In this document: positions 43,888 through 45,352 of the stretch, in pieces | How the letters are laid out: each line of letters begins with the position of its first letter | Numbering within the stretch: the first letter of the stretch is position 1 | Assembly (NCBI RefSeq): GCF_025399835.1 | Contig: NZ_JAODVR010000001.1 | Coordinates: 558,001-622,000, forward strand | Origin: Haloarchaeobius sp. HME9146 | Lineage (GTDB): Archaea; Halobacteriota; Halobacteria; Halobacteriales; Natrialbaceae | Direction of reading: 5' to 3' | DNA: 64,000 nt | Program-made: the position numbers and the translations under genes | Notes under the pieces: generated by a model | The model's database searches: none | Seen by the model: the letters and a program-made list of their open reading frames with translations, nothing else | What the model was told of the DNA's origin: nothing

Positions 43888-44027
43888 AAACCGGAGACTT
43901 CGTTCTTTTCTACTTTACTCGAACGCTGCAATCCCGGTTGCTGACTGCGATTGCAGGTCCTTCTCGTACTTACTCGAACGCTGCTATCCCAGTCGGCTCA
44001 CCGCCATCGCCACATTTCTCGTAATTT

Positions 44028-44056
44028 GGAGGTTTCTCCCTCCGGTCGAAACCTCC
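44028..44056. terminator. Hairpin in the 3' region of the acyl-CoA dehydrogenase gene
   Basis: GGAGGTTTC (44028-44036) pairs perfectly with GAAACCTCC (44048-44056), 11-base loop. It lies 63 bases past the gene stop on the minus strand, between the gene end and its echoes. It may be a transcript 3' end structure or part of a small repeat. Confidence 0.4.
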
Positions 44057-44082
44057 CTACTCGCGGCTACGCCGCTCGCAAC

Positions 44083-44118
44083 CGTGATTCTCGCTCGCTT
44101 CGCTCGCTCCGAATCACG
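44083..44118. terminator. Hairpin abutting the acyl-CoA dehydrogenase stop codon
   Basis: CGTGATTC (44083-44090) pairs perfectly with GAATCACG (44111-44118), ending one base before the stop at 44119. The loop is a CGCTCGCTTCGCTCG-type repeat often found between haloarchaeal genes. Confidence 0.4.
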
Positions 44119-45282
44119 CTACTCGAACGCTGCAATCCCGGTCAGGTCCTGCCCGAGAATCAGCGTATGGATGTCGTGGGTGCCCTCGTAGGTGTACACC
44201 GTCTCCATGTTCGCCATGTGGCGCATCGGCGAGTAGTCCGACGTGATGCCGTTGCCGCCGAGCATCTCTCTCGCAACCCTCGCCTGGTCACGGGCCATGC
44301 GGACGTTGTTGCGCTTGGCCATCGAGACGTGCTGCGGCCGGAGGTCGCCGCGCTCTTTGAGGTCGGCGAGGCGGTGGGCCAGCAGCTGGGCCGTCGTGAT
44401 CTGGGTGGCCATCTCGGCCAGCTTCTCCTGCTGGAGCTGGAACCGGGCGATGGGGCCGCCGAACTGCTCGCGGTCGACGGCGTAGTCGCGGGCCGTCTCG
44501 AAGCAGTCGCGGGCCGCACCGATGGCACCCCAGGCGATGCCGAAGCGGGCCTGGGTGAGACACGAGAGCGGTCCCTTCATGCCCTCGACACCGGGGAGGA
44601 CGTTCTCCTCGGGCACGAACACGTCGTTCAGGCCGAACTCGCCCGTGATAGAGGCGCGCAGCGAGAGTTTTTCAGTTATCTTGTTGACGGAGAAGCCGTC
44701 GCGGTCGGTCTCGACGAGGAACCCGCGCACCGGGTTCCCGTCCGAGGTCTTGTCGCGCGCCCAGACGACCGCCACGTCGGCGATGGGCGCGTTGGTGATC
44801 CACGTCTTCGAGCCGTTGAGGACGTAGCCGCCGTCGGCTTCTTCGGCGCGGGTCTCCATACCTGAGGGGTTCGAGCCGTGCTGGGGCTCGGTGAGGCCGA
44901 AGCAGCCGATCTTCTCGCCGAGGCCCATCTCGGGGAGCCACTCGTCTTTCTGCTCCTCGCTGCCGAACGCGTGGATGGGGTACATGACGAGTGCGCCCTG
45001 CACGCTGGCCATCGAGCGCAGGCCGGAGTCACACGCCTCGAGCTCCTGCATGAGCAGGCCGTAGGCGGTCTCGGAGACGTTCGGGAGGTCGTACCCGTCG
45101 AGGTTCGGGGCGTAGAAGCCCATCTCGCCCATCTCGGTGATGATGTCTGTCGGGAACGTCCCCTCTTCGAAGTGCTGTGCGATGTCGGGTTGTACGCGGT
45201 TCTCGACGAACTCACGGGCCGAGTCGCGGATCATCCGCTCCTCCTCGCCGAGGTCCGCCTCCAGGCCGACGTAATCGAGCAT
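44119..45282 (-). CDS. Acyl-CoA dehydrogenase, glutaryl-CoA dehydrogenase type
   Basis: FAD flavoprotein, 387 residues. Signatures are CFGLTEPQHGSNPSGMETRA near 125, GSKTWITNAPIADVAVVWA near 157, the R-F-G-I-AWGAIGAA segment near 257 and the catalytic-glutamate region VYTYEGTHDIHTLILGQDLTGIAAF at the end, which fits the glutaryl-CoA dehydrogenase branch. It oxidises acyl-CoA and passes electrons to ETF. The start MLDYVGLEADL is chosen over one 16 codons upstream. The last codons are echoed twice downstream. Confidence 0.9.
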   Translation of the reverse strand: MLDYVGLEADLGEEERMIRDSAREFVENRVQPDIAQHFEEGTFPTDIITEMGEMGFYAPNLDGYDLPNVSETAYGLLMQELEACDSGLRSMASVQGALVMYPIHAFGSEEQKDEWLPEMGLGEKIGCFGLTEPQHGSNPSGMETRAEEADGGYVLNGSKTWITNAPIADVAVVWARDKTSDGNPVRGFLVETDRDGFSVNKITEKLSLRASITGEFGLNDVFVPEENVLPGVEGMKGPLSCLTQARFGIAWGAIGAARDCFETARDYAVDREQFGGPIARFQLQQEKLAEMATQITTAQLLAHRLADLKERGDLRPQHVSMAKRNNVRMARDQARVAREMLGGNGITSDYSPMRHMANMETVYTYEGTHDIHTLILGQDLTGIAAFE

Positions 45283-45352
45283 ACGTCGGCTGGGTAGTCC
45301 GCGCAGAAAAGTACTCCTAAATCGGCGCAAGTGTTGCCGGAGGCACCCCGGC

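Follow-up and report, generated by a model that had tools for sequence, protein, structure and literature searches.

A hairpin with one protein-coding arm, built across the stop codon of haloarchaeal acyl-CoA dehydrogenase genes, and its tandem copies

In the 64,000-nt stretch of the Haloarchaeobius sp. HME9146 genome analyzed here (“the window”), the end of an acyl-CoA dehydrogenase (ACDH) gene was found to be part of a hairpin element of ca. 56–66 nt that spans the stop codon. The last six codons of the gene (CTS-ACY-GGN-ATH-NCN-GC) make up the 5′ arm of the element, and its 3′ arm is non-coding. The anatomy of the element, the covariation of its helices, its restriction to ACDH, its tandem copies, and its presence or absence between close relatives were all observed directly. 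The element is read here as a cis-acting hairpin maintained by selection, copies of which are gained by duplication and lost by deletion; the function is inferred from the sequences, and the reading as a whole is given about an even chance.

The host gene (44119..45330, minus strand; Pfam Acyl-CoA_dh_N, Acyl-CoA_dh_M, and Acyl-CoA_dh_1) lies in a haloarchaeal genome of 4.19 Mb, and its nearest relatives are those of Haloarchaeobius (89–95% identity). The last codons, L-T-G-I-A-A-F-E plus the stop codon (“S0”; 44119..44145, minus strand), form the 5′ arm of hairpin 1; the final 24 nt (44119–44142, minus strand) are ACCGGGATTGCAGCGTTCGAGTAG. An initial annotation of this DNA had reported that the last eight codons (TGIAAFE and the stop) recur twice behind the gene, that these “echoes” differ from it only at third codon positions or in the stop, and that the residues before the shared block differ sharply. 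This description was right in every detail. The first echo (“S1”; 43970..43993, minus strand; ACTGGGATAGCAGCGTTCGAGTAA) is the 5′ arm of hairpin 2; the second (“S2”; 43915..43938, minus strand; ACCGGGATTGCAGCGTTCGAGTAA) is identical to the gene end save for the stop codon and has no following antisense arm (A3). Each echo is preceded by an antisense arm: A1 (43997..44014, minus strand; TGTGGCGATGGCGGTGAG), which belongs to hairpin 1 and is decayed relative to S0, and A2 (43941..43958, minus strand; ACCTGCAATCGCAGTCAG), which belongs to hairpin 2. Hairpin 2, composed of S1, the loop, and A2 (43941..43996, minus strand), was matched by the covariance model R1 with a score of 36.9 bits (E = 3.7e-7 for the window and 2.4e-5 for the genome). 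The window holds a decayed array: a palindrome that has inserted into hairpin 1 disrupts it, and hairpin 2 is intact. A degenerate pattern for the ACDH peptide end, with one mismatch allowed, was found in exactly three places in the 4.19-Mb genome (reversed control, 0). An origin of the echoes in paralogous genes was ruled out by this search, which returned no other such gene end. A tRNA-related site was also looked for, and no tRNA was found in the window or in four element loci.

The sequence that disrupts hairpin 1 consists of GTAG-preceded palindromes of a dispersed kind, inserted in the loop between S0 and A1 (44023..44118, minus strand). Similar hairpins occur elsewhere in the genome, among them palindromes behind four tandem genes of similar sequence at C1:1219714-1223694 (L087; the L-labels designate the ACDH loci analyzed, 80 of which were fetched from other genomes, with more found later). 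In the congener L093/L121, the loop at the same place measures 18 nt. The hairpins that had been noted between the copies are therefore real, but they belong to this dispersed insert. The palindrome family has the form GAGTAG followed by GGAGATTCGGAGCGA...GCGAGAATCTCC and lies directly 3′ of stop codons (eight sites by pattern; control, 0). In Haladaptatus and Halomicrococcus (L011, L013, and L016/L129), another conserved block (CTTTTTACTGCGGGTCCTCCTCG ... CTAAAAAG) with a terminal inverted repeat starts ca. 3 nt past the ACDH stop codon, which gives the impression that small insertions favor this gene end.

Across loci, the order of parts is S0, loop, antisense arm (A), a linker of 1–6 nt, and echo S1, sometimes repeated as a tandem array; the inserts are 35–60 nt long. 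Arm A is the reverse complement of the first 16 nt of S0, and S0, loop, and A fold into one hairpin that includes the last codons and the stop codon. RNA folding of seven intact S0-loop-A units yielded a single hairpin in each case (z-scores of −3.9 to −10). The outer stem has 16–17 bp, with the codons as its 5′ arm. There is also a short helix in which the Phe/Tyr codon pairs with the loop (UUC/GAG-type) and an internal loop of tandem G-A pairs (5′-CGAG/CGAG), with a CGAG opposite the coding CGAG in 27 of 36 loci. Often there is also an inner stem, which starts with the stop codon and is closed by a GNNA loop (e.g. TGACGC-GAAA-GCGTCA and TAGCGC-GCAA-GCGCTA). Many of these GNNA loops have a pyrimidine at position 3, unlike the classic GNRA form of RNA. 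Structures of both kinds, GNNA loops and tandem G-A pairs, are stable not only in RNA but also in DNA, and the folded strand could be single-stranded DNA instead of RNA.

The two arms covary. When A was compared with its own gene end in 24 non-redundant loci, 325 of 384 positions were Watson-Crick pairs, and the best of 20,000 permutations gave 290 (p < 5e-5). Each third codon position was complementary in 18–21 of the 24 loci (8–13 expected), and in 20 loci A was a better fit to the gene end than to the echo, in one a poorer fit. Covariation with the partner positions extends to every one of the five third-codon positions, to the codons for Ala/Pro/Ser and Phe/Tyr, and to the stop codon, which is TAG or TGA. 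A structure count over 17 loci had 86.6% of cells paired and 13 of 26 pairs with changes on both sides, including the second bases of the Phe/Tyr codon (UA 8, AU 6) and of the stop codon (AU 8, GC 5). Double-change cells numbered 60 in this count, compared to 20.6 ± 4.4 in shuffles that leave relatedness in (0/500) and 3–11 in slid controls. Within one genus-level group of seven loci, mostly Halorussus, the corresponding figures were 22 and 9.2 (0/500 shuffles). From the slid controls and this within-group covariation, it is argued that relatedness is not the whole cause of the signal. G-U mismatches outnumbered A-C mismatches in the arms by 17 to 5 (p = 0.017), an excess that points indirectly to the sense strand as the one that folds.

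The element was located at no fewer than 37 distinct haloarchaeal loci in seven of 17 families and ca. 16 genera, always at the 3′ end of the same gene. ACDH genes are followed by copies of their own ends in Haloprofundus (two copies, period 58), the metagenome-assembled genomes (MAGs) QS_1_68_17 (three copies, period 55–58) and QS_9_68_17, Halorarius, Halobaculum, Halegenticoccus, and Halorussus. A tandem pattern was matched in nine of 392 genomes of the order (reversed control, 0) and a single-echo pattern in 16 of 392, nearly all of the latter sites being directly behind the ACDH gene. ACDH ends scored for an antisense and a sense copy were distributed bimodally: ca. one quarter had both and the others neither, and the spacing was fixed, with the echo at the A offset plus ca. 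20. Model R1 matched at least 24 of 195 whole genomes, a lower bound because the model filters were strict; the loci were partly picked for carrying the element, and this is the only one of the frequencies that is unbiased. Every listed match locus ends an ACDH gene, and R1 had no match outside ACDH ends in the 195 genomes. Among 3,292 ORF ends scanned in the loci, the S-A-S arrangement rose above background only at ACDH, which rules out a general habit of haloarchaeal gene ends. The element is patchy, with 18 changes on a 122-gene tree (a rough count, some element-bearing loci having been labelled element-free), and it can be present in one of two close relatives and absent from the other. 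Because of this patchiness and its absence from most ACDH genes, the element is dispensable. It matched none of 4,227 Rfam families, and no description of a hairpin element at the ACDH end was found in the openly accessible literature.

The nature of the echoes was evident from the multi-unit loci (L147, L159, L115, L039, L090, and L092). There, S, loop, and A are all repeated, so the echo is the 5′ arm of the next unit; at other loci, the unit that follows the echo has decayed. The antisense arms, which the initial annotation had missed, change the meaning of the finding. The echoes are neither strays nor integrase scars; each is the 5′ arm of an additional copy of the hairpin, and many of these copies have decayed. 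The longest array seen was at L147 (G023), where at least four nearly perfect 64-nt hairpin units stand in tandem behind ACDH. Tandem units are homogenized in L147 and L159, and species-specific changes are common to a gene and all of its echoes (GGCCTTGCAGCC in L147 and GGCATTGCGGCC in the congener L148). The echoes thus usually resemble the gene of their own species, which points to local duplication and homogenization and speaks against an origin in an alternative allele; one case that fits replacement is L158, the echo of which resembles the gene end of L013. Where an element-free relative is close, its post-stop sequence can be aligned with what follows the last echo of the filled locus (L095 with L130 and L134; L088 with L139). 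Filled and empty flanks join at the last echo, so units are gained or lost exactly between gene-end copies. Loss is suggested by loop remnants that some element-free relatives retain.

The echoes copy a true gene end and recur in related haloarchaea, and third codon positions are enriched among the differences that separate the first echo from the gene end (51 of 86, or 59%, in 31 loci). The earlier proposal that the echoes were once under protein-level selection is hardly supported by this figure (one-sided p = 0.05), since ca. 50% would be reached by any inactive copy that accompanies a functional gene. Stop-codon read-through into the echo was ruled out, as the stop-to-echo offsets fall in all three frames (29, 31, 34, 39, 40 nt, and others).

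An account without any function must be weighed against selection. The palindrome at the gene end could have been created and kept by replication template switching and slippage, with the protein-selected gene arm overwriting the non-coding arm and the tandem copies time and again. The mechanism is published, and template switching can itself create and maintain covarying arms, mimicking selection (PMC8794818). That A tracks the gene arm, that tandem units homogenize (L147 and L159), that the distribution is patchy, and that distal units decay are all in keeping with it. The conserved, non-Watson-Crick CGAG/CGAG and the GNNA-capped inner hairpins, however, are unexpected under this account: palindrome correction would have turned CGAG into CTCG and should have erased the motif, so its retention in 27 of 36 loci argues for selection on the folded sense strand. 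A G-G mismatch at one Gly position has persisted uncorrected in Haloprofundus, the excess of G-U over A-C is likewise unaccounted for, and no other gene end among the 3,292 behaves alike. This explanation is accordingly regarded as possible but somewhat unlikely.

Mobility offers a different origin for the echoes. A mobile, single-stranded hairpin cassette might insert at the gene end and supply a replacement end (S0), in which case the displaced old end would be the echo. In the Haladaptatus group, L154 and L158 have nearly identical end cassettes in genes that are 88% identical, which suggests the exchange of a short gene end alone; three relatives end in TTG-AC.. without the element. The Haladaptatus-like L158 is also 95% identical to L013 in the gene body and differs from it in the last 27 nt, and it is the L158 echo that is similar to the L013 end. 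Cassette subtypes are common to different families (L093/L154), filled and empty sites are precise, and the gene end and echo of L154 differ at six positions, all of them third codon positions. Against this stand the location of all copies at ACDH in 195 genomes, the loop remnants in element-free relatives, and the absence of an integrase within 35 kb of the gene in 14 genomes and of a Y1 transposase from the genome. No match to the latter (PF01797) was found in the genome of the window, which rules out mobilization by an IS200/RAYT system of the host. Furthermore, the nearest element-free gene was closer to S0 than to S1 in 17 cases and closer to S1 in seven; the native-like end is usually S0, and the notion that the echoes are old ends left behind by allele replacement fits L158 but not the general case. 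The cassette is therefore judged unlikely. A related and still more doubtful idea is that of a gene-locked mobile or selfish hairpin, i.e. a self-complementary cassette with a replacement gene end that would spread between haloarchaeal genera into a single site, amplify in tandem, and evolve in concert with the last codons. If true, a non-coding reservoir could rewrite the C-terminus of a protein. Finally, the echoes might be scars left at the attachment sites of proviruses or integrative elements that have the ACDH 3′ end as their target. Integrases commonly target the 3′ ends of genes, and repeats of the gene end do flank inserted sequence here. The inserts, however, are short (35–60 nt) and structured, the antisense arm covaries with the gene, no phage integrase was found within 35 kb of ACDH in 14 element-bearing genomes, and no viral contig carries the ACDH gene end. 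On the last two results a viral attachment site was rejected, and they run counter to the earlier suggestion that the ends were regenerated by an inserting element; scars of this kind are very improbable.

On the preferred reading, that of a selected cis-acting hairpin, the element would work as a folded sense strand, most likely as the 3′ end of the mRNA. A stable hairpin there may block 3′ exonucleases, or it may end or pause transcription. Complementarity of the arms would be preserved by selection as synonymous sites in the coding arm drift. Whole units would be duplicated or lost between the direct copies of the gene end by recombination or slippage, and decay of distal units would leave the echoes. 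Hairpins of Haloferax are able to stop transcription; one that lies in a coding region does so in 59% of transcripts (PMC7237163). Downstream genes were convergent at 15 of 31 filled and 30 of 69 empty loci (p = 0.67); this lack of a difference lends no support to a terminator role, and no association with convergent genes was seen.

If confirmed, this would be a structured element with one protein-coding arm, in which base pairing of RNA or DNA constrains which stop codon is used. It would reside in a single metabolic gene of haloarchaea, for which tandem copies and empty alleles both occur naturally. It also provides a comparative system for a general question, namely whether compensatory changes in hairpins come from selection or from template switching; that question can be tested because some congeners carry the element and others lack it, and because arrays range from one to four units.

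Several known systems bear comparison. Rfam families of structured cis-acting RNAs have covarying helices and conserved loops as well, whereas the ACDH element matches none of them and has a protein-coding arm. The GTAG-tagged REP/BIME sequences (PMC3733652) are likewise short hairpins, at times arrayed, that lie within gene ends or immediately past them. REPs, however, occupy many scattered sites and are associated with RAYT transposases; the ACDH element has its coding arm, is found at ACDH only (no dispersed copies were found in 195 genomes), and resides in a genome without a Y1 transposase. Of the two, it is the palindrome in the loop of hairpin 1 that resembles a REP more. The 3′-end termination hairpins of Haloferax volcanii (PMC7237163) are similarly situated close to the 3′ ends of transcripts, and one of them, which is located within a coding region, is active in a reporter. 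The ACDH element differs from them in being bound to one gene family, in including the stop codon, in its conservation by covariation across genera, and in its tandem repetition together with copies of the gene end; any effect on transcripts is putative. Hairpins made by template switching (PMC8794818) share with it the reverse-complement copies and multi-base compensatory changes, whereas the ACDH element has conserved tandem G-A pairs and GNNA loops, occurs at one gene only, and is linked to a direct copy of the gene end.
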